NCBI GenBank assembly: GCA_903916735.1
Contig: CAIWXX010000064.1
Location: 1-33,939 of the forward strand
Origin: an uncultured Acidobacteriota bacterium
GTDB taxonomy: Bacteria; Acidobacteriota; CAIWXX01
Direction: 5' to 3'
Length of the DNA stretch: 33,939 nt
Numbering within the stretch: position 1 is the first letter of the stretch; every line of letters begins with the position of its first letter. The notes under the pieces are model-generated. The model was given only the letters and a program-made list of their open reading frames with translations, searched no databases and had not been told where the DNA came from. A program made the translations under genes and the position numbers. This document shows positions 13,825 to 33,235 of this stretch, piece by piece.

Positions 13825-14029
13825 AATGATAAAGCAGAGAATTCCGATTTCGCGCCAAAGCGGCATTAGCCACAAGTTGCTGAAAATAAAGAGATGGAAC
13901 CAGACCCGCCATTTGTTCTAATGTAAACAGTCGTTGACGGGAATCCATGATGTTCCTGAATATTCGCAGTCTTTTAAGGAGAAATCGGCACTGTCAACGG
14001 AAATTGACAGCCGACGGCTTAAGGTTCGC

Positions 14030-14415
14030 TTGCCGACCTGATCACGCGCGTACAGGACCAATCGGCGCAGCGACTCGACGAATCGCTCCCGGGCTCGGTA
14101 AAAGTACCCATCGCCCGGCGCGTAGCCGCTGCGCTCGGCGCACCGGAAGAGGTCGGTATTGGGGTAATGTTTGGTCAGGTGGATCGCCAGGATGTTGGCG
14201 CGCTCCCGCGGCGCCGGCAGGTCGATGAAGAAGACCTTGTCGAAGCACCCCTTTCGCAGCAACTCGGGCGGCAGCCCCTCGATGTTGTTCGCCGTGGCGA
14301 TGGTGAAGACCTGCTTCCTGTTCTCTTCCATCCAGGTCAGGAGGGAGCCGAACACGCCCGGGTCGTTGAGCTCCAGCCGGAACGGCAGGATGCGCTTGGG
14401 GTCGGCCGGCTTCAT
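14030..14415 (-). pseudogene. AAA+ ATPase fragment lacking Walker A and B
   Basis: The frame reads GVFGSLLTWMEENRKQVFTI, ATANNIEGLPPELLRKG, then FFIDLPAPRERANILAIHL. These are the sensor-1 asparagine, the arginine-finger helix and the lid-domain entry of an FtsH/CDC48-like AAA+ ATPase. The P-loop and Walker B acidic pair that should precede them are absent. The finger motif is RKGCFD rather than the family's RKGRFD, replacing an arginine with cysteine. The end of the frame (to 13918) is not family-like. It is read as a decayed tail of a larger gene, abutting the YcaO locus. Confidence 0.6.
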
Positions 14416-14655: not shown

Positions 14656-17106
14656 ATGGCGGGAAAGAAGAAAATACGATCCTTCAAATCCAGTGCGCAC
14701 GGGACGCATAAGGGTACAGGTATCAATGAAGCACTTTTGCTCGCGGCGGAGAAAGGGGACATCGAAGCAGTCAGGACAGCGATCGATGCCGGTGCGGGCC
14801 TCGCTGCGAAAAGTTCCCTGGGTAACACTGCCCTGTGTGTTGCGGCAAGCGCAGGTCACATCGACATTGTCGGGCTGCTGCTGGAGAAGGGCGCCGACGT
14901 CCACGCTCAAGACGACCGCTGCATGGACCCGCTCTCGTGGGCTGCGTTGCGGGGTTATGATGCGATTGTACGGCTGTTGCTTGATCACGGCGCGGTTATC
15001 AACACGCTCAACGGGTCCGGTTGGCCCCCAATCGGCCAGGCTTGCAGCCAGGGAAGACTCGATGTGGTGAAGACCCTGATCACGTACGGGGCGGACGTCA
15101 ATCTTGCGTTCGACAGCGGGCGCACTGCGCTTATGTGCGCCGCCTACCAAGGGCATACCGAAATCGTGAAGGAACTCCTGAAAGCAGGCGCGGACAAGTC
15201 GCAGCAATACCAGGGGATGAAGGTACGCGATCTCGCCGAGCAGCAGGGGAACATCGATGTCGTGGGAAACAGCGTTAGCCGAACAGAAAGTGTTCAACGT
15301 CACAATCCAATGACGTCAAGATCTTCTCTCGGCGGTTACGACTTCCACAAGGACCGAAAGCCTAGCCGGACGGTCGAACGGATCAAGTCACGATTGGAGC
15401 GGCTTGGTTTCCTGGAAGAAAACGCTTACCTGAACTGGAAACAGCCCTATGAAAATTGCTTCTCCTGTTTCCTCACATTCCGTGACTACCCATTCTTCAT
15501 CTCCAATGGCAAGGGGATGACAGCGGAGTTCGCGCTGGCGAGTGCCTACGCCGAGTTCATCGAACGGCTGCAGTGCAAAGGGGGCTTTCACTTCGCCCGC
15601 CTGGGACTTATCAAGAACCAGGACGAACTGCCTGCCCTCCGAAGGACGCGGAATCGTGATGAGCTCTATGTTGATCACCCGGTTCTCTTCGAAAAGATGG
15701 ATCCCCGCCTTTCCCCCCTCCTTCCGGATGAACTACCCTGTCTGCCCGTTTGCGATATCTTCAGCCGGTCAGTCGTGGATCTCCCCATCTCCCTGATGTA
15801 CGCGGCTTCAGGCACGACCGGGATGTGCTCGGGGAACAGTTTTGAAGAGGCCTGCAGCCAGGGGCTCTGCGAGATCATGGAGCGCCATGTCCTTCACCGG
15901 TTTTACACCGGCGAGGTCGATGAAGTTCCCACGGTCGACTTGAGGAAGATCAGGCTCCGGAGTTCTCTTTTGAAAAGCCTGGTTGAGAAGATCCAGGAAA
16001 GCGGATGTGTTATCACCGTTAAGGATTTTACCCTGGAGGGGAAATTCCCTGTCCTCGGAATGGTTCTCAGGGAGAGGAAGACAGGCAAAGTCGCCGTCGC
16101 TCTGGGTTCGGACCCGATCCTGGATATTGCCCTCCAGCGCTGTCTGACCGAAGCACTCCAGGGGCGTAGCAGGCCGGAACTGGACCCGGCTGAGCGAAAT
16201 ACCGGTGTGAGTAAACCCGACAGCGTCTACAATGCGCCACACCTTGTCGCGGAGCGACTGCTGCGCGGCGCCGGGGAATCCAGATTCGAAGATGCTTTCC
16301 TCGATCAGCCGGCAACCAACCAGGAATATCTTCGGTTCCTGCTAACAAGGCTCAATCCCGGGGAGAAGGTCTTCATCCGTGATTTCTCCATCCTCGGTTT
16401 TCCCAGCTACTATCTCTACGCGGAGAATATGTCGCCGATCAATCCCGACCTTCTCCTTGACGTGAAACTGGTCGGTGACACTGACCGTATCCTGGATGTC
16501 ATATTCCACCTCCCGGAGGCTTCCCGTGTCCAGATCAAGGATGTCGCCGCACTCCTTTTTGAATATGCGGAGCGACACGAAAGCTCCTTTCTGCTCCAGC
16601 TGGGAAAGCTCTTCACGCGAGTCCCAGTCTTTTCCTGGCTTGACCCCCGGTGGCTGCTCGCGTTCTTGCTTGTCGAAGCGGAGGAGTACGAAAAAGCCTT
16701 CGTCACATTGAAGCAGACCGTCCCGGGACTCGCCGGCATCGCGATTGTCCCGGATCCGCCGGCCGCAGCCATCCTCGCACGCTATTGCCGAATGAAGGCG
16801 TCGGGGGAGCGGGACCAGGATGTTCTGAAGCGACTCCGCGAGGAGTTTGGGAACACGAAATATACCCCGCGTTTGGAACACCTCGTGAACAAAAACTATG
16901 CGGGGTTTGCCGGAGAAGATCCGAATGGATGGAAGTTCGACGGTTTGCCGATACCACGGTGTCATGACCGGAGTTCCTGCCGAGGATGCCCGTGCCGGAA
17001 GGATTGTTTCCAGGAGAGATGGTATGAGCTGCGATCTGCCTTCAAGGAGCGCGCCCGCAAGATAGACCAGCGAGGTATCCTGGCAAAGATTGCTTCATTC
17101 CGTTGA
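14656..17106 (+). CDS. Ankyrin-repeat/YcaO fusion, RiPP-modifying enzyme
   Basis: An 816-residue fusion. Residues 22-205 hold about five ankyrin repeats (GNTALCVAASAGHIDIVGLL, GRTALMCAAYQGHTEIVKEL). From about 240 a YcaO domain follows: SNGKG (283-287), AYAEFIERLQ, GTTGMCSGNSFEEACSQGLC with EIMERH (386-411), and GSDPILDIALQRCLTEALQG (484-503). YcaO enzymes use ATP to activate peptide amides, giving azolines, thioamides or amidines. The C-terminus lacks the PxPxP end of azoline cyclodehydratases and instead has a cysteine cluster C-x5-C-x2-C-x-C-x3-C (769-784) that could bind zinc or an Fe-S cluster. No E1-like, TfuA or dehydrogenase partner is nearby. The precursor peptide follows 74 bp downstream. 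The ankyrin array may hold the peptide or dock a partner (inference). AAGGTGAGAG precedes the ATG. Confidence 0.88.
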   Translation: MAGKKKIRSFKSSAHGTHKGTGINEALLLAAEKGDIEAVRTAIDAGAGLAAKSSLGNTALCVAASAGHIDIVGLLLEKGADVHAQDDRCMDPLSWAALRGYDAIVRLLLDHGAVINTLNGSGWPPIGQACSQGRLDVVKTLITYGADVNLAFDSGRTALMCAAYQGHTEIVKELLKAGADKSQQYQGMKVRDLAEQQGNIDVVGNSVSRTESVQRHNPMTSRSSLGGYDFHKDRKPSRTVERIKSRLERLGFLEENAYLNWKQPYENCFSCFLTFRDYPFFISNGKGMTAEFALASAYAEFIERLQCKGGFHFARLGLIKNQDELPALRRTRNRDELYVDHPVLFEKMDPRLSPLLPDELPCLPVCDIFSRSVVDLPISLMYAASGTTGMCSGNSFEEACSQGLCEIMERHVLHRFYTGEVDEVPTVDLRKIRLRSSLLKSLVEKIQESGCVITVKDFTLEGKFPVLGMVLRERKTGKVAVALGSDPILDIALQRCLTEALQGRSRPELDPAERNTGVSKPDSVYNAPHLVAERLLRGAGESRFEDAFLDQPATNQEYLRFLLTRLNPGEKVFIRDFSILGFPSYYLYAENMSPINPDLLLDVKLVGDTDRILDVIFHLPEASRVQIKDVAALLFEYAERHESSFLLQLGKLFTRVPVFSWLDPRWLLAFLLVEAEEYEKAFVTLKQTVPGLAGIAIVPDPPAAAILARYCRMKASGERDQDVLKRLREEFGNTKYTPRLEHLVNKNYAGFAGEDPNGWKFDGLPIPRCHDRSSCRGCPCRKDCFQERWYELRSAFKERARKIDQRGILAKIASFR

Positions 17107-17110
17107 GTTG

Positions 17111-17139
17111 TTGCAAATGCCCCCGACAACGGATAGAAT
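17111..17139 (+). promoter_or_regulatory. Likely promoter of the precursor peptide gene
   Basis: TTGCAA (17111-17116) and TAGAAT (17134-17139) are spaced by exactly 17 bases, a good sigma-70-type arrangement. The start point would be near 17146, about 35 bases before the ATG. This would let the precursor be made in excess over the YcaO enzyme. Confidence 0.5.
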
Positions 17140-17180: not shown

Positions 17181-17438
17181 ATGCCGTTGAAACCGTTTCT
17201 CGAAAAGTTGAAGAGTGACAAGGAGTTCCGACAGCAGGTTTTCACAGAAGTCCTTCCCGGGTTGGTGGCCATCGCCAAGAACGATGGGTACGATGTCTCG
17301 GAGGAAGGGTACCAGAAACTGCTGGCGAAGCACAAACACACGCTTACCGATACTCAGCTTGAGGCTCTGAGCGGCGGCAGCGATTGCCGTTGGATCGAGC
17401 AGTGCGCGAATGGGGGGGACTACACAGTCGGAAACTGA
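17181..17438 (+). CDS. Nif11-type RiPP precursor peptide with double-glycine leader
   Basis: An 85-residue precursor. Residues 1-62 are a Nif11-like leader (LKPFLEKLKSDKEFRQQV, then VAIAKNDGYDVSEEGY), the domain that RiPP enzymes and C39 transporters bind. LSGG at 63-66 is the cleavage site, leaving a 19-residue core, SDCRWIEQCANGGDYTVGN, with cysteines at 69 and 75 (C-x5-C). These are candidates for azoline or thioamide chemistry by YcaO and for thioether bonds by the radical SAM enzyme. A second GG at 78-79 could allow trimming. AGGGAGGTAG precedes the ATG at good spacing. It is convergent with the radical SAM gene (11 nt between stops). The two glutamates, tryptophan and aspartates make the core hydrophilic and acidic, unlike typical membrane-active bacteriocins. 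Confidence 0.9.
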   Translation: MPLKPFLEKLKSDKEFRQQVFTEVLPGLVAIAKNDGYDVSEEGYQKLLAKHKHTLTDTQLEALSGGSDCRWIEQCANGGDYTVGN

Positions 17439-17449: not shown

Positions 17450-18901
17450 CTACTTCAATAGATCTCCCAGTTCCCGCTGAAAGACGGCGAAGAACGAGCC
17501 ATGTGCCGGGTGGGACTTTTGCTGTAGACGTTGTGTCTCCTCCATCAGCCAATCCCGATCGACTTGCTCCAGCCCGCAGTACAACTCGATCGCCATCTCG
17601 ATCAGCAGTTTCAAATCCTCGCAGAACGAACGGGAGGGAGTAAATCGGTCCCCTGTCATAGCGAGGTTGTCGTAGTAACATCCGCCCGCGCAGATGGCAA
17701 GAGCCCAGCAGGAGTAACACGGCTCCCGGTTCCGCATCGGCGTCTCCAGATACTCCTCTCGCGCCAGTCCGCGGGAATCAATCCTGCCGATCCGGTAGTC
17801 GCTCACACCGAGGAAGCGGTGGCAAGGGTAACATGTGCCGTCGGTGGAAACGCCAATGGCTTCCCGTCCGGCGGAGCAGGGGAAGATGATCTTCTTGTGC
17901 GCGGTCAGCCTCCTCAGCAGTTTGCCGTAGACCTGCATGGGGGTGAATGCCCCGCGATCCTTCTCCTTTACTGCTCGCCGGAAACGAACTGCGTCTTGTT
18001 CGAAATGACGGATCAACTGCTGGCGGTATTCCTCACTTTTCCTTAATTGCCGGACTGTCTCCCTGTACCTGGCGGCCCCGGGTGCCGGCAGCGGGGGAGA
18101 GACGGGCTTGATATCGACGGTGGGAAACCCCAGTCCCCGTAGCGCAGCGTAGACATTCTCCACTTCAGTCCGTCCGCAGAACGTCGCACGGCAGGAGATA
18201 TGATCCCCTTCCATTACTTCGAGCAAGCGTTTGATCCTCGGTACTGTGGCCAGGTAGGATCCCACACCCCCCTGGCAGGGTCTGTTCCGATCCTGTATCT
18301 CCAACGGGCCGTCAAGACTTACCAGGACGAAAAAATTGTGCTCGCGAAGGAAGGCGATCTGATTGTCATCAAGAAGAATCGCGTTGGTCGTAATCGAGAA
18401 AGAGAATCTCTTCCCGACCTCTTCCCCTTTCCTCCTGGCATATGTGACTACGCGCTTGATAAGCGAGAAGTTGAGCACCGGTTCGCCGCCGAAGAAGCAG
18501 ATCGAAAGATCGCTCCCTTGTTTTGATTGCCCTATGAGCCAGTCGACGGCCAGGAGAGCGGTCGACTCAGTCATCTCGTTTTCTCCCCTGCTGCCGAAGC
18601 AGTATGTGCACCGAAGATTGCAGTGTTCTGTTACAAGGAGCGACATTGCGGAGACGGCGGCATCCTTCTCCAGTTCGATATCTTTGAGGGCCCGTTGGTC
18701 CGGCTCGTTTTCCGGGAACCCCAGGTCCTTGAGCTCCGATCTAACGGAAGGTGATAAGGGAGCCCCAGGAGTTTGCGACAGATGATCTAGCGCAGCGGCG
18801 GTCGAGGCACTTACCTCTGCTGCGATCAGTCTGTCCAGATTGAGAAAATAGGTCTTCCCGTTACGACCAAAAATATGAAATGGGAAAATCGATTTCGCCA
18901 T
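17450..18901 (-). CDS. Radical SAM/SPASM peptide maturase
   Basis: A RiPP-modifying radical SAM enzyme. CNLRCTYC (residues 94-101 from the chosen start) binds the SAM-cleaving cluster, SICFFGGEP is the GGE motif, and SITTNAILL and LVSLDGP are further barrel strands. The C-terminal SPASM domain holds CSAG...GTCYPCHRF and CYSCWALAICAGGCYYDN plus a last Cys, binding auxiliary clusters. Such enzymes make thioether (sactipeptide or ranthipeptide) or other crosslinks in peptides, often with Nif11-type leaders. The N-terminus FHIFGRNGKTYFLNLD is the leader-binding wing type. The start at 18901 (483 residues) fits homologues; 18955 is possible, and neither has a clear ribosome binding site. It lies 125 bp downstream of the second ABC transporter on the same strand. 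Confidence 0.88.
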   Translation of the reverse strand: MAKSIFPFHIFGRNGKTYFLNLDRLIAAEVSASTAAALDHLSQTPGAPLSPSVRSELKDLGFPENEPDQRALKDIELEKDAAVSAMSLLVTEHCNLRCTYCFGSRGENEMTESTALLAVDWLIGQSKQGSDLSICFFGGEPVLNFSLIKRVVTYARRKGEEVGKRFSFSITTNAILLDDNQIAFLREHNFFVLVSLDGPLEIQDRNRPCQGGVGSYLATVPRIKRLLEVMEGDHISCRATFCGRTEVENVYAALRGLGFPTVDIKPVSPPLPAPGAARYRETVRQLRKSEEYRQQLIRHFEQDAVRFRRAVKEKDRGAFTPMQVYGKLLRRLTAHKKIIFPCSAGREAIGVSTDGTCYPCHRFLGVSDYRIGRIDSRGLAREEYLETPMRNREPCYSCWALAICAGGCYYDNLAMTGDRFTPSRSFCEDLKLLIEMAIELYCGLEQVDRDWLMEETQRLQQKSHPAHGSFFAVFQRELGDLLK

Positions 18902-19025
18902 AGGAATATCAACAGAAAAATCGTCCCGGTCATTCGTTCCCCCGGATGGAGTCATTATCAATGAAGGCCTGAAAAAATGCAACAAAAGTGGGCGACGAAG
19001 CACTGCGCAGCAGCGGCATACCCGT

Positions 19026-21917
19026 CTAAAGCAGTTGTCGGCGAGCCAGTTCGGCGAACACACCCTGCTGCTGCAACAGTTCATGATAATTTCCGACCTG
19101 AACCACACTGCCGGCATCCATGACGTAGATGCGGGTTGCATTCTGAATGGTGCTCAGGCGGTGCGCAATCACAATGCGCGTTGCCTGAAGCTTGTCGAGG
19201 GCCTCGCTGACGATGGACTGGGTCTGGTTGTCCAGGGCACTGGTCGCTTCATCAAAGAGCAGGACTCGCGGTTTGCGGACAATGGCCCGTGCAATCATGA
19301 GCCGTTGGCGCTGGCCGCCTGATAGGTTGCCGCCGCCCTCGCTGACAACCGTGAACATCCCCATCGGCATTTGTTCCAGATCCTTGTCGAAGCCGGCCAT
19401 CCTTGCAGCTTCCCACGCATCTTCCTGCGTGAGAATGGAGGAGCCGACAATATTCGAAAAGATGTCCCCGGGTAGAAGCTGGCTGCTTTGCAACACGACT
19501 CCGACCTGGCGGCGCACCGCACGGGGATCCAGGGCGGCGACGTCCATGCCGTCGTAGTAGATGGCCCCGCTTTCCGGTTCTTCGAAATTCAGCAGCAGGC
19601 GGAAGAGTGTGGACTTGCCGCAACCGGAAGCGCCACAGATGGCAATAAACTCACCGGGGGTTGCCTTGATGGAAACGTCGCGCAGGACCAGGGGGCTGTC
19701 CGGAGCGTAGCGAAAAACAACATGGCTCACTTCGATCGCACCGTTCAATTCACCCGGGTCGGCCCTGGTCGCATCCATTTCCGGCAGTTCTTCCAGAATC
19801 GATCGACACATGTCGAAGATCGGGAGCGCAGTCATGGACGAAACAATCGATCTGTTGAACTGAAGCATGCCGGCCAGAAACCCGACAAACGCTGCATAGA
19901 AAGAGAGGAATTTCCCTGTCGGCAATGTCGCTTGGGCGACCAGTCCGACCCATGCGAAGATGCACAAGGAGGAGATGACCGGGAACGCGGCATCGAACGT
20001 TGCCTGCCAATTGGCGACGTTACGCGCATCCACCGAATGCTTCTTCTGCTGCGCGAACTGCCGTGCCCACGCCGCGTAGGCGCGCGGTTCCGCCGCGGCG
20101 ACCCTCAGCTTGGCAATGCCGCTGATGAACTGGAAGACCATGCCGGCGATCTTGCTTTGCAGGAGCAGCAGCGGTCGTTGGTGCCTGACCTGATAATATC
20201 CAGAGAGAGACGTGACCACTACTGCCAGCAGCACCAGGATGGTCCCAAGCAGGGCTAGTTGCCAGTCGTAGTAATAGAGCAATCCGAAATTAAACAACGA
20301 AAACATGCTTCCCAGCACTGCAGAGACCATGTTCGTGGAAAGGATCTGACGGATCATGTCGAGCCCGGTCGCGCGCGAGGCCAGTTCCCCGGTGGTATAG
20401 TTGCGGAAAAAAGGCACAGGCAAGTTCAGCAGGCGATCCCACAGCCCGGCCTGGACAGCGAAATCCATTTTGCCTTCGATCCGCAGAACGGCGATTGACT
20501 GCGTCACCTGGAAGACGGCGACGGCGACAGCGCCGATGACCAGCGCCAGCGTCAGCTGAAACAACTGGCCCCGATTCGCCGTGGGGATCACGGAGCCGTA
20601 CACTTCCCCCGTGATGATGGGAAGCATCAGCCCGATAAGTCCGATCCCGATCCCCATCAGCACAACGAATCCGATATCCTTCCCGGTTCCAAGGAGTCCG
20701 AACCGAAGAAGTTCTCTCGCTCCGAGTTTCATGTCCGGGAATGGCCGGTAGAAGATATATGCAGTCCCTGTCAGCGAGGCTGCGTTTTCGGGAGTGACCG
20801 GTGTGCTGGAATGGTTCGAAGGGTTGTACAGCGTGTACTTGCCCGCCGCTTGCGGAAGAAGCGCCACCGGAACATTGCCGTCTTCAAGATAGGCCAGCAA
20901 CGGGCCCGAGTCTTCCCGCCACCAGGCTCCCTTGAGCAGGACTTTGCGAGTCCGGAAACGGGAGGCTTTTGCGATGGATGCGAGGGGATCGGCAAACGTG
21001 CTGGCGGACTTCGAAATCAGGTGGGCGGGGGCGACCTGAATATTCACTCGTTCGGCAACCATTCGGCAGGCGCGCAGGAGAAGATTGTCGCCGGCTTCCA
21101 TGCTCGCCGGAGCGACGCCTTTCTTGTCCAGAACAGCAGCGAGATCGGAAACGGCGCGCATCATGGAGAGCTGGTCTGCTTCGGCCCGTCGCTCAAACAG
21201 ATCCCGGTCCTGCTTTTCTTCCATTACCAAATCCGCAAGCAGACAGGACATTACCAGGGAATGAAAAGCAGAGAGCGAATCGTACAGCCTGCCCTGCCCG
21301 AACATGTTCACCGTGTCCATGACATGCACATTTGCTTCGGAGGCGCATCGGATCCACATGCGGTCAGAAAGCGGGTAGTAACTGGCGGGACTGAGGGGGG
21401 GCAATTCCGCACGGCCCAGGAACTGAACATCACCGCGAGCCGGCCGAACCCACAAAACCCCGTTCCTGCACAGGACATCTACGCCGCACGGAACAGCCAC
21501 TTCCGCTTTGGCCTGCAATTCGACAGCCCCCCGCTGTGGATTCTCCCATCGGACCGACCGGGACAGAGATGTCACCCAGTTCTCCACCAGGGTCACAGGG
21601 TCCTTGAAATCGGCCGGAAAATTCGGAAGTTCCTGGAGAAAAGAAAGAGGGAATTCGATAACATTCGTGCCTGGGCCGCCCACCGCGATCAGGCTGATCC
21701 GCTCCTGGAACCCATTCAACGAAATTCCAAAGATCGCCTGACCTCTCTCCACTCGCACAACGTGCCGGTTCCTGCCGCCGGTACCCGCTCTGGCGAAAAC
21801 ATCCACTTGTCCCTCCCGGACAAGCCAAACACTTTCCGGCCGGGTGGGTGCGAATGGTTTGTTGGCTCCGAGTTCCATCAGGACGCCTTCCGGTCGGAGA
21901 CCCCGTTGTTCTGTCAT
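19026..21917 (-). CDS. NHLM-type bacteriocin ABC transporter, second subunit (no peptidase)
   Basis: A 963-residue ABC exporter half. The N-terminal 300 or so residues are a cyclic-nucleotide-binding-like region (SVWLVREGQVDVFARAGTGG). A six-helix transmembrane domain spans about 390-680, and the nucleotide-binding domain follows: Walker A ICGASGCGKSTLFRLL, signature NLSGGQRQRLMIARA, Walker B VLLFDEATSALD, and the H-loop IVIAHRLSTIQ. Layout and length match the second ABC protein of the NHLM (nitrile hydratase leader microcin) export systems. It has no C39 peptidase domain, so it should work with the preceding transporter, probably as a heterodimer. Its ATG is two bases from that gene's stop, and the gene is the fourth in the export operon. 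Confidence 0.9.
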   Translation of the reverse strand: MTEQRGLRPEGVLMELGANKPFAPTRPESVWLVREGQVDVFARAGTGGRNRHVVRVERGQAIFGISLNGFQERISLIAVGGPGTNVIEFPLSFLQELPNFPADFKDPVTLVENWVTSLSRSVRWENPQRGAVELQAKAEVAVPCGVDVLCRNGVLWVRPARGDVQFLGRAELPPLSPASYYPLSDRMWIRCASEANVHVMDTVNMFGQGRLYDSLSAFHSLVMSCLLADLVMEEKQDRDLFERRAEADQLSMMRAVSDLAAVLDKKGVAPASMEAGDNLLLRACRMVAERVNIQVAPAHLISKSASTFADPLASIAKASRFRTRKVLLKGAWWREDSGPLLAYLEDGNVPVALLPQAAGKYTLYNPSNHSSTPVTPENAASLTGTAYIFYRPFPDMKLGARELLRFGLLGTGKDIGFVVLMGIGIGLIGLMLPIITGEVYGSVIPTANRGQLFQLTLALVIGAVAVAVFQVTQSIAVLRIEGKMDFAVQAGLWDRLLNLPVPFFRNYTTGELASRATGLDMIRQILSTNMVSAVLGSMFSLFNFGLLYYYDWQLALLGTILVLLAVVVTSLSGYYQVRHQRPLLLLQSKIAGMVFQFISGIAKLRVAAAEPRAYAAWARQFAQQKKHSVDARNVANWQATFDAAFPVISSLCIFAWVGLVAQATLPTGKFLSFYAAFVGFLAGMLQFNRSIVSSMTALPIFDMCRSILEELPEMDATRADPGELNGAIEVSHVVFRYAPDSPLVLRDVSIKATPGEFIAICGASGCGKSTLFRLLLNFEEPESGAIYYDGMDVAALDPRAVRRQVGVVLQSSQLLPGDIFSNIVGSSILTQEDAWEAARMAGFDKDLEQMPMGMFTVVSEGGGNLSGGQRQRLMIARAIVRKPRVLLFDEATSALDNQTQSIVSEALDKLQATRIVIAHRLSTIQNATRIYVMDAGSVVQVGNYHELLQQQGVFAELARRQLL

Positions 21918-21919
21918 TG

Positions 21920-24130
21920 CTACTCGCTCTTGATCAGCGCGGCATATTCGCCGCCTTCAGCCATCAACTGTTCGTGGGTCCCGCGCTGCACGACGGAACC
22001 CTGGCGCAAAACGATGATTTCCTCGCAGTCGCGGATGGTGCTGAGCCGGTGGGCGATGATGAAACAGGTGCAACCTCGCCGGCGAAGATTGTCGTCCACG
22101 ATCATTTCGGTTTTCGCATCCAGTGCACTTGTCGCTTCATCCAGGATGACGATGGAAGGATTGCCCACGAGCGCGCGGGCAATCTCAAGACGCTGCCTTT
22201 GTCCCCCGCTCAGGTTTCGTCCACCCTCGGCCACCCTGGTCTCGTAGCCCCCGGCGCGAGCGGATATGTCTTCATGAATGCATGCGTCTCTCGCCGCCGT
22301 CACGATGTCGGCATCCGGCCTGCTCGCGTCCCACATCGTCAGGTTCTCGCGGGCCGTTCCTTCGAATACAAAGATGTCCTGGTCGACCATGGCAAGGGAA
22401 TTCGCAAGCACAGAACGCGGGATGACGTTTCGGCTCTTGCCGTCAAACAGGATCTCGCCTTCCCACGGGTCGAAGAGGCCGCTGATGAGCTTGGCAATAG
22501 TGGATTTCCCCGAACCGGACCCTCCGACAATCGCCACCCGTCCGCCCGGTCTCACCACCAGACTGAAATCCCGAATCAACGGATCGGCCAGCCGACTGTA
22601 CCCGAAAGTCACCCCGCGCAGTTCCACCTGACCGGCCAATCGTACGCCCCCGATCTGCGAAGTTGAAGGTCGATCCTCTTCTTCGCTCAAGCCCGGATGC
22701 ATCTTGTAGCGAAGCACATCATCCAGCCTCTTCAAGCTTCCGTCGACTTCCTGCAGTGAACTGCCCAGTGACACCATTCGATTTACCGGATTCGTAAAAC
22801 CGATCATCAAGCTCTGGAACGCCACCAGCGCCCCGACGCTCAAGAAACCGTCCATCACCTGCAGCCCACCCAATCCCAGGATGATTGCGGTAGTGATGGA
22901 TGACAGCAGCGGAGGCACGGCAGCCAGTACCTGTGTCGAAACGCCGAGTTGCTGCTGTGCATTGAGCAGCTTGGCGTGATAACCGGACCAGCGCGAAAAG
23001 AAATCAGATTCCAATCCTGTTGCCTTAAGGGTCTCAATGGCAGCCAACCCCTGCATGGAAGTGCCCATCAGCTTGCCGCGTTCCTGCATGAGTTTCTGAT
23101 TCTGATCCTTTCGCTTGCGCGAGATGAAAGAGAGCGCCGCCAGGTTCAAACCGGCAACCAGCACACCGACCAGCGTCAGAACCACGTCGTAGCGGAACAT
23201 GAGCAAGGCGTAAAAACCGATCATGACGATGTTGAGCACCGCCGTGGCAAGTTCACCTGAGAGCAAGGAGGCCACACGATCATTGATGGACACTCGCGAG
23301 CTGAGGTCACCGCTGAACCGCTGAGCAAAGAACTCCACAGGAAGCCTGAGCACATACCACAGGAACTTCCCGGAGTTGCAGAGCGCCAGCTTCATTTCCA
23401 GTCGCAACAGGTACTTCTGCTGCAGCCAGGTGAGACCGGCCATCAACATTGCCGTGACACCCATCACGATCATGAGAGGGGTCATCCAAGATGTCATACG
23501 GTTTACCAGAAAGCCGTCGACAAAGACCTTGTTGAAAATCGGCACGACCAATCCGGGCATTACCAGGGCCAGTCCGGTCAAGACGGCAAAGGTCAAGGCC
23601 ATCTCGTTACCCGGCAAACGCCCGAGCAAGCCGCGCACCATGCTCGGCTTCTCACCCCCTGTCTTGAATTCGGCCGTGGGTGCAAAGGTAAGCACGACGC
23701 CTGTGAAAGATCGGTCGAATTCCTCGTTGGACACGGTACGAGGGCCCGAGCCCGGGTCATTCAGATAAACACGCTTGGGACCAAAGCCTTCGACCACCAC
23801 AAAGTGATTGAAATTCCAGAAGGCGATCATCGGAAGAGGCAGGGACGGCAGTTCGGCCAGTTCCACCTGCATGCCATTCGCTTCAAGACCGAACCGGCGT
23901 GCGGCTTTCGCAATGTTCGACGCCTTACTGCCGTCGCGGGACACGCCAGTCTCCTGCCGCATCCGTTCCAGCGGCACCCACAAGCCGTAGTAGCCCAGAA
24001 TGCTGGCAAGGGCGGCGGCGCCGCATTCCAGGGCTTCCATCTGCAACACAGTCGGCGTTCTCACCCGACGGTGTTTCGGCCCGGCCCTGCGGGGTCCCGA
24101 TCCCATCGCGGTCGTTTCCTGCTGTGTCAT
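21920..24130 (-). CDS. NHLM-type bacteriocin ABC transporter with C39 peptidase domain
   Basis: Cleaves the leader and exports the peptide across the inner membrane. Residues 20-160 are a C39 cysteine protease: catalytic Cys in LQMEALECGAAALASILGYY, His in FNHFVVVEGFG, and Asp in LNDPGSG. About 190-460 are transmembrane helices. The nucleotide-binding domain has Walker A IVGGSGSGKSTIAKLI, signature NLSGGQRQRLEIARAL, Walker B IVILDEATSALD and the H-loop FIIAHRLSTI. C39 peptidases cut after double glycine, matching LSGG in the Nif11 precursor. The 736-residue length fits the first ABC protein of NHLM export systems. It starts four bases after the HlyD gene and ends two bases before the second transporter. 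Confidence 0.93.
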   Translation of the reverse strand: MTQQETTAMGSGPRRAGPKHRRVRTPTVLQMEALECGAAALASILGYYGLWVPLERMRQETGVSRDGSKASNIAKAARRFGLEANGMQVELAELPSLPLPMIAFWNFNHFVVVEGFGPKRVYLNDPGSGPRTVSNEEFDRSFTGVVLTFAPTAEFKTGGEKPSMVRGLLGRLPGNEMALTFAVLTGLALVMPGLVVPIFNKVFVDGFLVNRMTSWMTPLMIVMGVTAMLMAGLTWLQQKYLLRLEMKLALCNSGKFLWYVLRLPVEFFAQRFSGDLSSRVSINDRVASLLSGELATAVLNIVMIGFYALLMFRYDVVLTLVGVLVAGLNLAALSFISRKRKDQNQKLMQERGKLMGTSMQGLAAIETLKATGLESDFFSRWSGYHAKLLNAQQQLGVSTQVLAAVPPLLSSITTAIILGLGGLQVMDGFLSVGALVAFQSLMIGFTNPVNRMVSLGSSLQEVDGSLKRLDDVLRYKMHPGLSEEEDRPSTSQIGGVRLAGQVELRGVTFGYSRLADPLIRDFSLVVRPGGRVAIVGGSGSGKSTIAKLISGLFDPWEGEILFDGKSRNVIPRSVLANSLAMVDQDIFVFEGTARENLTMWDASRPDADIVTAARDACIHEDISARAGGYETRVAEGGRNLSGGQRQRLEIARALVGNPSIVILDEATSALDAKTEMIVDDNLRRRGCTCFIIAHRLSTIRDCEEIIVLRQGSVVQRGTHEQLMAEGGEYAALIKSE

Positions 24131-24134
24131 GGGG

Positions 24135-25385
24135 CTATAGTCCGGTTCTTCCTTTCAAATGAGGAAACATCAAGGAGATCGGCGCCTGTTCACTGGTGAC
24201 GATGTTGCCGGTACAAAGCGTGCCGCTGGATATCTGGAACGGTGGATCCCTTCTTGAGGACCAGCGGAAACCGCTGGCAGTTGCCGGATCGTGTTCCAAT
24301 TCCACTTCCACCTGGTAGGGGTTCCCGGCTGTGCAGAACTGCTGAACCAGATCGTCGTTCTCCAGGAGGGCCTGCATTTGCTGCCTGGGAGCCGGAAACT
24401 GGCTGACCACAACGACTCTGGCAACCATGTACCCGTACTCCTCCTGCTTGACGTTTGCCGGAGAAAGCTGAACACTCATTCCGGGCTGCACCCTCTTCCC
24501 GTCCATGGGACTCACGTACAGAACGGCCGAGATCCGCTTCTGGGGAAGCTCCAACTGAATCACTGCGGTTCCCGGCCCGACAATGTTTCCTTTTTCGACA
24601 AGTACCGAGGTCACGAACCCATCGTATGGCGTGGCAATCTGCGTGCTGTCTTTCAGTTGAAGTTCCAGGGTTGATAGCTTGTTTTTCGCATCAGTGAGCT
24701 GCCCCTTGGCCTGGTCAAGTGCCGATGATTTCTGATTCATCAGGTCAAATTCCTGAGTCTTGAGTTGCTTCAAATTGTCTTCACACCGGGACAGGGTTTG
24801 CCTGGCAGCCTGCTCATCATCTTCGGCAGAATCCAGCAGATCTTTGTTGATCAACCCTTTGCTCAGCAATTCCTTCATGTTGGCGGTTTTCTCCTGGAGG
24901 TTCTGCAGTTTCGCCTTCGCAATTTCGATCGATTTGACCTGATAGTCTTCCTGCCGTTTCAGATCCTGCATCCCGAGACGAAGTCCTTCATTGTAGTCAA
25001 CCAAGGCATCGTCGTAGAGGCGCTGGTTCTGCAACACAATGCTTCTCGCATCCTCCACGTTCTTGACGACGTCCGGTTGGGCCATCGTTACCACGACTTG
25101 GCCGGACGCTAACCGGTCCTTGGCGCTTACTTTCACGTCCAGGACCATGCCGCTGGAGTTGGAAAAGACGCTGTGGATTCCTCCTTTCCGAAGGAGGATC
25201 CCCGTGCCGGAAACAAGGACGGGAACGCATCCGATGAAGCCCCAGACAACTGCGGCCATGAGAAATGCACCGAAGGCAATCAGAGCAATCCAGCCTTGCG
25301 GGTTGGTCACCCGAACTGTTTGATCGAGTTGTTCAAGTGACGATATTCGCTTCAGTGCTACTTTTTGAAAGATCGGTGATTCCAT
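24135..25385 (-). CDS. HlyD-family (NHLM system) periplasmic adaptor
   Basis: The membrane-fusion protein bridging the inner-membrane transporters and TolC. A single membrane segment at about 34-60 (GWIALIAFGAFLMAAVVWGF) follows a short cytoplasmic tail. GGIHSVFSNSSGMVLDVKVS and YDGFVTSVLVEKGNIVGPG are the two halves of the lipoyl domain. Between them (about 120-250) lies a long coiled coil with AKLQNLQEKTANMKEL and KGQLTDAKNKLSTLELQLKD. Length (416) and the C-terminal beta-barrel with VARVVVVSQFPAPRQQMQ fit the adaptors of NHLM bacteriocin systems. The gene is four bases from its neighbours on both sides. Most of the product lies in the periplasm. Confidence 0.9.
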   Translation of the reverse strand: MESPIFQKVALKRISSLEQLDQTVRVTNPQGWIALIAFGAFLMAAVVWGFIGCVPVLVSGTGILLRKGGIHSVFSNSSGMVLDVKVSAKDRLASGQVVVTMAQPDVVKNVEDARSIVLQNQRLYDDALVDYNEGLRLGMQDLKRQEDYQVKSIEIAKAKLQNLQEKTANMKELLSKGLINKDLLDSAEDDEQAARQTLSRCEDNLKQLKTQEFDLMNQKSSALDQAKGQLTDAKNKLSTLELQLKDSTQIATPYDGFVTSVLVEKGNIVGPGTAVIQLELPQKRISAVLYVSPMDGKRVQPGMSVQLSPANVKQEEYGYMVARVVVVSQFPAPRQQMQALLENDDLVQQFCTAGNPYQVEVELEHDPATASGFRWSSRRDPPFQISSGTLCTGNIVTSEQAPISLMFPHLKGRTGL

Positions 25386-25389
25386 CGTT

Positions 25390-27030
25390 TCACCTGCCTG
25401 GCGAAGGCGCAGTTGCAGCCAGATCGATGTCGTTTTTCGACAGGATCATTCCGGTTGCCCGTTGGAACTCCACCTGCGCCTTCTGGTAGTTGACGACTGC
25501 GGCCAATTCAGTAGAGCGTGCCGTGAAGTATTCATCCTGACGCTGCAGCACAAGGAAGTTTGTCGATTTTCCTGCTTTGTATTTCTCCACTTCCCCTTCC
25601 ATCATCCTCTGGGCGGCAATCCGCCCCGCGCGCGAGGTTTCAACCAGGATTCCGGTTGACTGGAGTTCCTGCACGGCGTTTCGCACTTCCTGGGCAATCT
25701 CCTTCATCAATTGCTCGCGTTTTGCTTCCTGCTGCTGCTTTTGCAGCGTGGCCTTGGCCCAATTTGCGCTGGCAGTCTTGTTCCCCCAGGGAAACGAAAT
25801 GAGAACTCCAAGCTCAAACTTGGGGAAATCCCAGCCAACCATACTCTTGAATGCATCTCCGTAGCCTCCGACAAACTGCTCAGGCACTTTCCCCAGCATT
25901 TCGGGAACGGCAGTACCGGCAAGAGCCGCGCTGCTTGCCGTTCCAACAAGGTCTACCTGCGGCGTCATCTGATTTCGGAAAAAGCGCACATCCAGTGCGC
26001 TCTGTTCTACCTGCAGGTCCTGCTGCCGGACCTCCGGGCGCTTGTTCAAGGCCAGTTCGATGGCGTCTTGAACGTCTGGTGTAGCCGCCGATCGGTCCGG
26101 AAAAGCCGCCGGTTCCAACCGGGCAAACCAGATGGAATCTGAATGGTCTCTCGTCAACAACGCTTTCAGCGTATCTTCCATCTGAGCGAGTTGTTGCACG
26201 GAGACGACCAGCCAGCCTTTTCTTGTCTCGATGCTCGACTCGTTGGAGCGCAGTTCTATAGCCGCAATCAGGTTCAACCTCACCGCTTCCCGGTTCGCTT
26301 CCAACTGTTCGTAGGAGATCCGCACTGCGTCTTCCTGGTCGCGCACATTCTGGATTGCGCCAAGAAGGTCGAGATAAGTCGTCTGAACCGAATTCACGAT
26401 TGCAATGACTTGCATTTCGAACTGCACGTCGGAGAGCAGGTTGCTCTGTTTCAGACGGGTTACCCGGTAGCGCCCGGAATCGATCGACCCGTTCCGAACC
26501 AGCGGTTGAGTGTAGGTGAAAGACAGGTTCGTGTTGTACTGAGGAGAAAGCGTCTCGAAACTCGCGTTTGTCGTCATTCTCGAATTGTCGAACTCCAGTT
26601 GAAGAGTTCCGCCACCCCAGGGAACGTACTTCAGAAGCGAAAAATCAGCTGCGTACTCATCCTGATCGAACGATCCTTGCGTTCCTCCGCCGCCATAGAT
26701 CGAGGTGACCGGTGTCTTTTCATACAGGCTGTTCAGGCTGAAAGTGCTGGTGTAGTCGTAGTAGCCATCAGCCGAAACGACATCGTAATGGCTGATCTCT
26801 GCGTCCATGCGGAATACGGCAATGTCCGTGTTCTTCTGAAGAGCCAGACCTATCGCCTCGTGCATGTCCAGCGATCTCGTCTGGTCGGCACGAATTCCCG
26901 GCCGAGCCTCAACTCTGTTGACAAAGTCCTGAATCGATTCGCCGGGAGCGACCTCGGGTGCCTGCCCGAGAACCCCTGCTGGAAGAAAAAGGCAAATGAC
27001 GAGAATACAAATGCTTCTGTGCACGAACAT
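25390..27030 (-). CDS. TolC-family outer-membrane efflux protein
   Basis: Forms the outer-membrane and periplasmic exit duct. The start at 27030 gives a signal peptide, SICILVICLFLPAGVLGQ, ending near Gln23-Ala; upstream in-frame ATGs lack one. The mature part has the TolC plan: LDMHEAIGLALQKNTDIAVF at the first helix, extended strands (GTLQLEFDNSRM, NTNLSFTYTQPLVRNG), a coiled-coil half (IRISYEQLEANREAVRLN-like region), and the repeat with AIELALNKRPEVRQQDLQVE and VVNYQKAQVEFQRATGMIL. At 546 residues it is somewhat longer than E. coli TolC (493). First gene of the four-gene export operon. No strong ribosome binding site or promoter is visible before it. Confidence 0.88.
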   Translation of the reverse strand: MFVHRSICILVICLFLPAGVLGQAPEVAPGESIQDFVNRVEARPGIRADQTRSLDMHEAIGLALQKNTDIAVFRMDAEISHYDVVSADGYYDYTSTFSLNSLYEKTPVTSIYGGGGTQGSFDQDEYAADFSLLKYVPWGGGTLQLEFDNSRMTTNASFETLSPQYNTNLSFTYTQPLVRNGSIDSGRYRVTRLKQSNLLSDVQFEMQVIAIVNSVQTTYLDLLGAIQNVRDQEDAVRISYEQLEANREAVRLNLIAAIELRSNESSIETRKGWLVVSVQQLAQMEDTLKALLTRDHSDSIWFARLEPAAFPDRSAATPDVQDAIELALNKRPEVRQQDLQVEQSALDVRFFRNQMTPQVDLVGTASSAALAGTAVPEMLGKVPEQFVGGYGDAFKSMVGWDFPKFELGVLISFPWGNKTASANWAKATLQKQQQEAKREQLMKEIAQEVRNAVQELQSTGILVETSRAGRIAAQRMMEGEVEKYKAGKSTNFLVLQRQDEYFTARSTELAAVVNYQKAQVEFQRATGMILSKNDIDLAATAPSPGR

Positions 27031-27187
27031 GCTGATGCAGCATCGCGGCGCGATTCCACTCAAATTGAGCGTCGAATGTTCTCGAAAAGCGGAGTCCCGG
27101 CCCGATTCCTGGAGCAAACATTTTCGGCTCTCTGCCCTAGACAATGACCGCCGCCTTCCGAGCATCAAATTTCGGGTCAGGATACCA

Positions 27188-27831: not shown

Positions 27832-28215
27832 CTATCCAATCCCCAATGCTTCTCTGGCTACCGCTCGAAAACGACGGCAGCGTTTGCGTCCTTCCAGGGC
27901 AGTTTCCTTTTCGGCGGATTCACCCGGATACCGGAAGGTTACAGAGAAATCGGATAGGTAAGCCAAGTCTTCCCGTAAGAATTCAAACATGGGCCGAATC
28001 GGTAATAGCTTTTCCAGCAGGAAAACGAGATCATGACTTTTTGGCACCGGTAAACCAGTCTCTACTATCTGAGCCTTGAGATACTTTTCGGCGCACTGTT
28101 GCGCGTGGAAACAAACTCCATCGTAATTGGGCTCTTTTCGGACTCGATATTCCCTTTCCATAGTAGAAAAGTCACGCTCCGCCTTTTCAATCCATTCAAG
28201 GGTGAGGGGCTTCAT
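27832..28215 (-). CDS. HEPN-domain protein of a HEPN/MNT pair
   Basis: A 127-residue all-helical HEPN protein of the COG2250 type: WIEKAERDFSTMEREYRV at the start, the conserved CFHAQQCAEKYLKAQIV helix, then GLPVPKSHDLVFLLEKL and YLSDFSVTFRYPGE. HEPN proteins paired with MNT nucleotidyltransferases act as toxin (often an RNase) and antitoxin (which modifies the toxin). The classical RNase motif R-x4-6-H is not obvious; instead there is the RYPGE ending seen in this subfamily, so RNase activity is uncertain. It overlaps the MNT gene by 20 bases with MNT first, which is normal for such pairs. Confidence 0.85.
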   Translation of the reverse strand: MKPLTLEWIEKAERDFSTMEREYRVRKEPNYDGVCFHAQQCAEKYLKAQIVETGLPVPKSHDLVFLLEKLLPIRPMFEFLREDLAYLSDFSVTFRYPGESAEKETALEGRKRCRRFRAVAREALGIG

Positions 28216-28531
28216 AAAGCACCTTTCCCTTCTCCAGTATTTCCTGAATGAAAGAGTCCCCCAGGGATACTCGCTCAGCGATCTTTTCCGGGGTGCGAAC
28301 CAGGATATCGACGGGGAAAGAAGGTTTGATCTTCAACCTTACTTCCACCGCCTTGTCGATTTGCTTTCCCTGATAGGGCATAATAATTAATAGGTCAACA
28401 TCCGAATCTACCGATGGATTACCGTCGGCACAGGACCCAAATAGAATGATTCTATTCGGGTGAAAAGCATCGGCAATTTCCCTGCCCAATTTCTGAATCT
28501 GAGATTCCTCGATAGCCATAGATACGTCCAT
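28196..28531 (-). CDS. MNT-type nucleotidyltransferase (antitoxin of HEPN/MNT)
   Basis: A minimal nucleotidyltransferase of 111 residues. The signature is ILFGSCADGNPSVDSDVDLLII, that is G-S-x-x-x-G with the D-x-D metal pair, and the third acidic residue is in FPVDILV. Family members transfer AMP or another nucleotide to the partner HEPN toxin and so block it. Two starts are possible, 28531 (MDVSMAIEES) and 28519 (MAIEES); neither has a strong ribosome binding site. The pair lies alone between repeat copies 2 and 3. Confidence 0.85.
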   Translation of the reverse strand: MDVSMAIEESQIQKLGREIADAFHPNRIILFGSCADGNPSVDSDVDLLIIMPYQGKQIDKAVEVRLKIKPSFPVDILVRTPEKIAERVSLGDSFIQEILEKGKVLYEAPHP

Positions 28532-31774: not shown

Positions 31775-33235
31775 ATGCGTAGGAAGGACGGAAGTCCTCA
31801 TGGGATTCTGGTGCTGGCAGTTGTAGCCGGGCTTTTGCTGCTTTGCGCATCGACTCTCATCGCGCAGGAGAAGATCGTTCCCAGCAAGGCTCCATTGAAC
31901 CCGGAATTCCTGAGGTACATGCAGGCGCGTGCCGAGGGGAGGGTCCAGCAATACACACCTGGCGGCATGCCGCTCGGGCACATCCCTGCACCGCTCGATC
32001 TGTCGTACATGAAAGGCATGCAGGTCTTCCCGGCCCGGGCGAAGTCGATTCCCGCAACCTACGACCTTCGCACGAAGAATAAGCTAACCCCAGTCAAGGA
32101 CCAGGGGCAGTGCGGGTCGTGCTGGGCGTTCGCCACATTCGGATCAGGCGAATCCTGGCTCAAGCCCGGGGAATCACGTGATTTCGCCGAATGGCACATG
32201 TGCCAGAACCACGGATGGGACTGGACATCGTGCGAGGGCGGTAACTCATGCCTCGCCACGGCGTATCTCGCCCAGTGGAAAGGACCCTATAACGAAACGG
32301 ATTTTCCGTATCCCTACTACGTCGAGCTGGGTCACGACGCTGCCATCCAGAAGCACGTCCAGGATGTCTACTGGCTCCCGGGCCGCGCGAGCTACACCGC
32401 CAACGACACGGTCAAGAAGGCGGTCATGGACTACGGAGCCGTTACCATTGATTTCTTCGTCGATGACACACCGTCCAAGTACTTTAACGCCGACCGGACC
32501 ACCTACTACATGAACGTCGTGTCCGATGGGACGAATCACGAGGTTTGCATCGTGGGGTGGGACAACAACTACAGCAAGACCCGGTTCTACCATCAAGCCC
32601 CTGGCAACGGCGCCTTCATCATAAGGAACAGCTGGGGCACGGCCTATCACGACGACGGCTACTTCTACATGTCTTACTACGACAAGAACCTGAAACTCGG
32701 CGCCTGCTTCAACGGCTTCAAGGCTACCGACAACTTCGGAGGCTTCTACTACGTCGATCCGCTCGGGTGCATCAACTTCAGTGGCTATGGCACAACGACC
32801 GCGTGGGGCGCCAATGTCTTCAAGGCGACCAGCACGGCCAGACCGATCAAGGCGGTCAGCACGTACTTCGCGGTGCCGAACACGGCCTATCAGATCTACG
32901 TCTACAACAACGTGACATCTACCACCAACCCCAGAACCGGCACGCTCTTGGTGAGTAAAACCGGAACGCAGAGCCTTCCGGGTTATCACACGATCACCCT
33001 GCCTACCCAAGCGGCGATCACGGCTGGGAAGAAATTCTCTGTGGTCATCAAGTACACGACCCCTGGATACAACTATCCGGTCCCGATTGAGTATAAGTAC
33101 GCGGGCCTGACGAGCAAGGCGACAGCGAAGCCTCAGGAGAGCTACATGAGCTCCAACGGGACCTCTTGGGCGGATACCACCACCTACGATAAGACGGAGA
33201 ACGTCTGCATCAAGGCTTTCGACGTAAAGAGGTGA
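31775..33235 (+). CDS. Secreted papain-family (C1A) cysteine protease with C-terminal lectin-like domain
   Basis: A 486-residue exported protease. Residues 1-31 are a signal peptide (RRKDGSPHG, then ILVLAVVAGLLLLCASTLIA). After a short propeptide the mature enzyme starts near PATYDLRTKNKLTPVKDQ. Active-site residues are Gln110 and Cys116 in KDQGQCGSCWAF, His255 in TNHEVCIVGWD, and Asn285 in IIRNSWGTAYHDDGYFYMSY. From about 310 a beta-rich region (GCINFSGYGTTTAWGANVFK, TAYQIYVYNNVTS) resembles the lectin-like domain found after bacterial C1A proteases. It probably digests proteins in the periplasm or outside. A strong AAGGAGG lies nine bases before the ATG. It stands alone, with no inhibitor gene next to it. 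Confidence 0.9.
   Translation: MRRKDGSPHGILVLAVVAGLLLLCASTLIAQEKIVPSKAPLNPEFLRYMQARAEGRVQQYTPGGMPLGHIPAPLDLSYMKGMQVFPARAKSIPATYDLRTKNKLTPVKDQGQCGSCWAFATFGSGESWLKPGESRDFAEWHMCQNHGWDWTSCEGGNSCLATAYLAQWKGPYNETDFPYPYYVELGHDAAIQKHVQDVYWLPGRASYTANDTVKKAVMDYGAVTIDFFVDDTPSKYFNADRTTYYMNVVSDGTNHEVCIVGWDNNYSKTRFYHQAPGNGAFIIRNSWGTAYHDDGYFYMSYYDKNLKLGACFNGFKATDNFGGFYYVDPLGCINFSGYGTTTAWGANVFKATSTARPIKAVSTYFAVPNTAYQIYVYNNVTSTTNPRTGTLLVSKTGTQSLPGYHTITLPTQAAITAGKKFSVVIKYTTPGYNYPVPIEYKYAGLTSKATAKPQESYMSSNGTSWADTTTYDKTENVCIKAFDVKR

Follow-up and report, generated by a model that had tools for sequence, protein, structure and literature searches.

The question raised by this locus is why a YcaO protein should carry an array of ankyrin repeats at its N-terminus, and what the resulting fusion (ANK-YcaO) acts on. 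The window, meaning the whole 33,939-nucleotide stretch of DNA that was analysed, contains the gene and its parts as follows.

14656-17106, plus strand: ANK-YcaO fusion gene, 816 aa, an uninterrupted single ORF (Pfam)
14719-15270, plus strand: ankyrin array, residues 22-205, five repeats with a C-terminal cap (Ank_2 1.9e-32, Ank 8.6e-30; DARPin matches in Foldseek)
15271-15327, plus strand: low-confidence linker, residues 206-224, holding Met219 (pLDDT <50 for residues 194-228; alignment)
15505-16416, plus strand: YcaO domain PF02624, residues 284-587 (1.1e-43; NF040716 143 bits, cut-off 700; 4q84)
15826-15885, plus strand: ATP/Mg motif CSGNSFEEACSQGLCEIMER, residues 391-410 (key residues invariant in the alignment; aligns with EcYcaO)
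16147-16167, plus strand: second ATP motif TEALQGR, residues 498-504 (T, E and Q kept in the alignment of relatives and in EcYcaO)
16444-16887, plus strand: C-terminal helical domain, residues 597-744 (helices in the model; Foldseek alignment with 4q86 over about 600 columns)
16960-17007, plus strand: four-Cys motif C-x5-C-x2-C-x5-C, residues 769-784, a possible Fe-S or Zn site

The preliminary description of this DNA placed five ankyrin repeats (residues 22-205) in front of an apparently complete YcaO domain, and both parts were confirmed. The Pfam ankyrin match covers approximately residues 25-186 with E-values far past chance, and the repeats can be read by eye as 22-53, 54-86, 87-120, 121-153 and 154-186, followed by a half-repeat cap (187-206). 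The YcaO domain covers model positions 1-319 of the 325 in PF02624, and the motifs NGKG...ExxER, SGNSFEEACSQGLCEIMER and TEALQGR align with those of EcYcaO and are invariant across 20 relatives, indicating that the catalytic (ATP) motifs are intact. Behind this domain lies a 230-residue C-terminal extension that the preliminary description passed over. No Pfam or NCBIfam model matched residues 588-816; the first part (residues ~597-744) is helical and EcYcaO-like in the predicted model and in the Foldseek alignment with the C-terminal part of EcYcaO, and it is followed by the four-Cys motif (CHDRSSCRGCPCRKDC) and a short tail. The protein ends in ...QRGILAKIASFR, and a C-terminal Pro-rich PxPxP tail was not found. 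The best fold match of the fusion was 4q86 (3.6e-18, Foldseek), although it should be noted that the AlphaFold model is of moderate confidence (pLDDT 64), with the linker and the Cys region below 50.

Relatives were collected by a motif scan of GTDB genomes, which gave at least 82 YcaO frames at no fewer than 80 loci, with more members added through profile searches; when the whole fusion served as query, ankyrin proteins crowded the results. In a maximum likelihood tree of 33 proteins ANK-YcaO groups with EcYcaO in a clade of 16 rows (support 100/100) and, inside this clade, in an 8-row branch (86/85), its exact sister being unsure (84/55, long branches). The pattern C-x(2-5)-C-x2-C-x(3-5)-C lies near the C-terminus of 10 of the 11 clade members outside the EcYcaO subgroup, and the remaining 22 YcaO proteins of the tree all lack it; it was present in three of 82 scanned frames among the matches listed, all of them EcYcaO-clade members. 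Judged from its sequence, this Cys4 motif may be an Fe-S or Zn binding site. YcaO proteins of the ANK-YcaO type are rare in the host phylum, where five of 396 genomes gave any match at E<=1e-15 and a full-length one was found only in the host's own. A single-protein scan of genome contigs and the viral contigs found no relative, plasmid records yielded distant EcYcaO-like proteins only, and phage records contained separate ankyrin proteins plus one ycaO. The phage record PV468777.1 holds E. coli ycaO, probably as host sequence in the record.

The genes on the 3' side of the fusion are these.

17111-17139, plus strand: promoter-like TTGCAA-17-TAGAAT ahead of the precursor gene (consensus scan, putative only)
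17181-17438, plus strand: Nif11-leader RiPP precursor, 85 aa (TIGR03798 37.7 bits, cut-off 32.3; PF07862 over cut-off)
17450-18904, minus strand: SPASM radical-SAM peptide maturase, ~484 aa (TIGR04064 397 bits; SPASM over cut-off; CteB 5wgg 2.9e-49)
19026-21917, minus strand: NHLP exporter permease/ATPase (TIGR03797 938 bits, over cut-off)
21920-24130, minus strand: NHLP exporter peptidase/permease/ATPase (TIGR03796 1095 bits, over cut-off)
24135-25385, minus strand: NHLP secretion HlyD-like protein (TIGR03794 319 bits, over cut-off)
25390-27168, minus strand: TolC-type outer-membrane factor (OEP PF02321 1.6e-29)

The RiPP context proposed earlier is therefore borne out by the Nif11 precursor, the radical-SAM enzyme (rSAM) and the NHLP exporter. 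The claim that an E1-like/TOMM-type partner is absent nearby also held, as no E1-like/RRE C domain was found in the fusion or, apart from the N-terminus of the rSAM protein, in the scanned neighbours. The precursor gene lies 74 bp 3' of the ANK-YcaO gene on the same strand, and the rSAM, exporter, HlyD-like and TolC-like genes are convergent to it. The precursor has LSGG at residues 63-66, with the double Gly at 65-66, and a predicted core (SDCRWIEQCANGGDYTVGN) that holds CRWIE, i.e. Cys-x3-Glu, and ends in ...YTVGN, its last residue being Asn. Nif11 leaders are helical and folded; a solved Nif11 domain gave a weak match. For the rSAM protein the best model, TIGR04064, scored under its equivalog cut-off of 518.7 and the PapB model (248 bits) under its cut-off of 340, and the closest solved structure is CteB. 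Relatives of the rSAM within the phylum share about 35% identity with it; none of five contexts read showed a recognisable Nif11, YcaO or NHLP set, which leaves no sister cluster to compare. ANK-YcaO is the only YcaO of the host genome (5.37 Mb) and the cluster precursor the only Nif11 gene over cut-off; no match to PF07812 (TfuA) was found in this genome. Elsewhere in the window an AAA ATPase fragment (13918-14415, minus strand; domain end only) lies directly upstream of the fusion and has the look of a gene remnant, a HEPN + nucleotidyltransferase (MNT) gene pair, likely a toxin-antitoxin, lies just upstream of the exporter genes (27832-28531, minus strand), and 31775-33235 (plus strand) encodes a papain-family cysteine protease whose C-terminal domain is lectin-like.

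The contexts of the relatives vary. In one cluster from Eubacteriales (L087/L162) the precursor is of the Nif11 type (34.1 bits, above the cut-off) and is accompanied by LanM, an rSAM and an NHLP-like exporter; one of the YcaOs in this cluster has an N-terminal methyltransferase. The Bacteroidales members L050 and L082 lie beside SPASM-type rSAMs and short ORFs, L209 has as neighbours a B12-rSAM C-methyltransferase of the RiPP kind, which scores over its cut-off, and a 56-aa ORF with the end AGGATIAISYAFAF, and L208 has a YedF sulfurtransferase-like gene (over cut-off) three genes away. For L093, L208 and L166-L170 a RiPP context was not evident in the stretch read, and ankyrins, an E1-like partner and a TOMM C domain were recognised in none of the relatives' contexts read. 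As separate observations, the Eubacteriales S38M_St_31 cluster (L161:7090-15999 and L162:203-4805; Nif11, LanM, methyltransferase-YcaO, second YcaO, SPASM rSAM and NHLP-like exporter) is an unusual mix of modifying enzymes for one leader, and the 56-aa ORF, Cys4-motif YcaO and B12-rSAM that lie in a row at L209:9225-13380 make a possible uncharacterised RiPP cluster. The YedF-like gene (L208:11668-12489), which is upstream of a Cys4-motif YcaO, is a hint that this enzyme may use a sulfur donor and make a thioamide.

Assignment of ANK-YcaO to better-known YcaO types was considered and rejected. A TOMM azoline cyclodehydratase (SagD/D protein) is contradicted by the TIGR03604 score of ANK-YcaO (46.9 bits vs a cut-off of 219), by the lack of an E1-like/RRE C domain in the fusion and the scanned neighbours, and by the lack of the PxPxP tail; a uL16-thioamidating YcaO is contradicted by the NF040716 score (143 bits vs 700) and by the pI of the YcaO part (7.5-8.05, not strongly acidic), and a TfuA-assisted thioamidating YcaO by the lack of a TfuA gene in the genome.

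Among characterised enzymes, EcYcaO (PDB 4q84-4q86) resembles ANK-YcaO in clade, ATP motifs, fold including the C-terminal helical part and lack of an RRE, but it is acidic (pI 4.38), has neither the Cys4 motif nor ankyrins and acts on a ribosomal protein. It installs a thioamide on uL16 without an RRE, binding directly a substrate that must be folded, and non-acidic EcYcaO-like enzymes have already been reported in RiPP contexts (PMC13063428). ItfB is described in a review (PMC11002830) as installing a backbone amidine and as carrying an [Fe-S]-recognition domain joined to its YcaO part. Compared by published description only, ItfB from the Bacteroides itf cluster (PMC11002830, PMC10352776) has a C-terminal [Fe-S]-recognition-like domain to which the Cys4 part of ANK-YcaO may correspond, and its cluster likewise contains a SPASM radical-SAM enzyme along with an ABC exporter of the C39-peptidase type, while the review names no E1-like partner; it differs in having no reported ankyrins, another leader type and a precursor that ends in Ile-Thr-Phe as opposed to Asn. 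ItfB presumably belongs to the same clade. The S38M_St_31 YcaOs (L087/L161/L162) share the Nif11 precursor, NHLP-like exporter, rSAM and Cys4 motif, but one of them has an N-terminal methyltransferase in place of the ankyrins, and the cluster has a LanM in addition and another rSAM type. Nif11/NHLP TOMM clusters (PMC4603692) likewise combine a Nif11 precursor with a YcaO, but they build their cyclodehydratase from two proteins, the E1-like C and the YcaO D, whereas ANK-YcaO is without a C domain. The enzyme group is known in outline; new are the fusion to ankyrins and the Cys4 pattern that runs through the clade, together with its Nif11 association.

From these comparisons we put forward, with about even confidence, that the gene encodes a RiPP-modifying YcaO in the style of EcYcaO and ItfB, with an N-terminal ankyrin docking module added, acting on the Nif11 precursor. 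The rSAM enzyme would act first, making one or two thioether links in the core; the CRWIE sequence is of the Cys-x3-Glu type that PapB takes and cross-links (CX3E; PMC9413430), and by this analogy the rSAM is probably thioether-forming. The YcaO part would bind the folded Nif11 precursor directly and activate a backbone amide of the core with ATP for attack by ammonia or sulfide, so that O would be replaced by N (amidine) or S (thioamide) and azolines would not be formed. Direct recognition of the precursor is the simplest reading, since the Nif11 leader is folded and EcYcaO requires a folded substrate without using an RRE. The ankyrin array would make a second contact, be it with the leader, with the maturase or with the transporter complex, but catalysis would not depend on the array. 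The NHLP transporter would cleave after Gly-Gly and then export the product. By analogy with ItfB (amidine) and EcYcaO (thioamide), non-cyclising backbone amide replacement is the most likely chemistry, azoline formation being less likely because of the low TOMM score and the lack of a C domain and a Pro-rich tail; the C-terminal Asn of the precursor, compared with Phe in ItfA, speaks against an ItfB-like amidine. In favour of the pathway are the position of the sole YcaO gene and the sole over-cut-off Nif11 gene in the genome, which lie 74 bp apart on the same strand and adjoin a SPASM rSAM and an NHLP exporter, the clade mates L087/L162, L050, L082 and L209 in rSAM clusters and the Cys4 motif in 10/11. 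Against it are the precursor's own promoter-like site and the convergent rSAM and exporter genes (co-expression is presumed only), the members L093, L208 and L166-L170, for which the stretch read shows no clear RiPP setting, the presence of the fusion in one genome and its weak placement within the clade (84/55, long branch).

Some of the same points bear on the possibility that ANK-YcaO stands outside a RiPP pathway and has a cellular protein as its target, like uL16 for EcYcaO, with the precursor adjacent by chance. The best-characterised clade member does act on a ribosomal protein, some members have no visible RiPP context and the precursor has a separate promoter-like site, but the fact that the only YcaO and the only Nif11 gene of the genome adjoin, the repeated occurrence of clade members in rSAM clusters and the pI of the YcaO part (7.5-8.05, compared with 4.38 for EcYcaO, uL16-type enzymes being acidic) make this unlikely.

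As to the ankyrins themselves, they were found in one of the 63 YcaO proteins scanned, i.e. the fusion under study, which bears out the rarity of this architecture. TPR repeats were found in about 43 of the 63, so that fusion of repeats to YcaO is common and it is the ankyrin type and the N-terminal position that are uncommon. The DVU2210-type TPR-YcaOs of sulfate reducers (PMC7774982) are likewise helical-repeat fusions with no partner protein, but their TPR is C-terminal, the tree sets TPR-YcaOs apart as a clade of their own and the Cys4 motif is absent in those tested. As an aside, Elusimicrobia bacterium ADurb.Bin231 (L041, L090, L095) has at least five YcaO-TPR genes, some in tandem, in a 1.8-Mb genome. 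A literature search gave nothing on ankyrin-YcaO fusions, co-mentions of both words being incidental. The array looks like a lineage-specific extra docking module for a putative ligand. It may, at well below even odds, have been recruited in cis for leader or enzyme docking, which would give a self-contained, ankyrin-guided enzyme for backbone modification; together with the putative metal-binding Cys4 site this would make up a RiPP enzyme architecture new to the literature searched.

The preliminary description went further, proposing that the ankyrins may stand in for an absent E1/RRE partner, in which case the array would be the main binding site of the Nif11 leader. Ankyrin arrays do bind proteins, this one is fused in cis and no TOMM-type partner lies nearby. 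The proposal is nevertheless weakened by the finding that the EcYcaO-type group (100/100) never had such a partner to be replaced, its characterised member binding substrate directly without an RRE (PMC13063428), and by close relatives in radical-SAM RiPP clusters that have Nif11 or other precursors and, as far as recognised, neither partner nor ankyrins; we regard it as improbable. Also improbable is a tether, in which the protein-binding ankyrins would hold the rSAM enzyme or the exporter of the same cluster and couple both modifications and export, as similar rSAM+YcaO clusters carry no ankyrins.

The fusion is known in single copy from one draft genome. A Shine-Dalgarno-like AAGGTGAG precedes the Met1 start codon and none lies upstream of the in-frame Met219, the start position of stand-alone relatives, which argues for a single translated fusion. 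With, in addition, 816 codons free of stops and frameshifts and third-position GC alike on either side of the junction (0.69 vs 0.67), it is very improbable that two neighbouring genes were joined by an assembly or base-calling error, as the single draft genome and the natural start at Met219 might suggest. If the ankyrins do guide the substrate, they would be a modular device, open to engineering, that could direct a peptide-modifying enzyme in place of the RRE. Regardless of their role, a conserved C-terminal Cys4 motif marks an EcYcaO-like group that is found repeatedly with radical-SAM RiPP clusters, and this group makes a testable set for how YcaOs without an RRE find their peptides and for the role of the Cys site.
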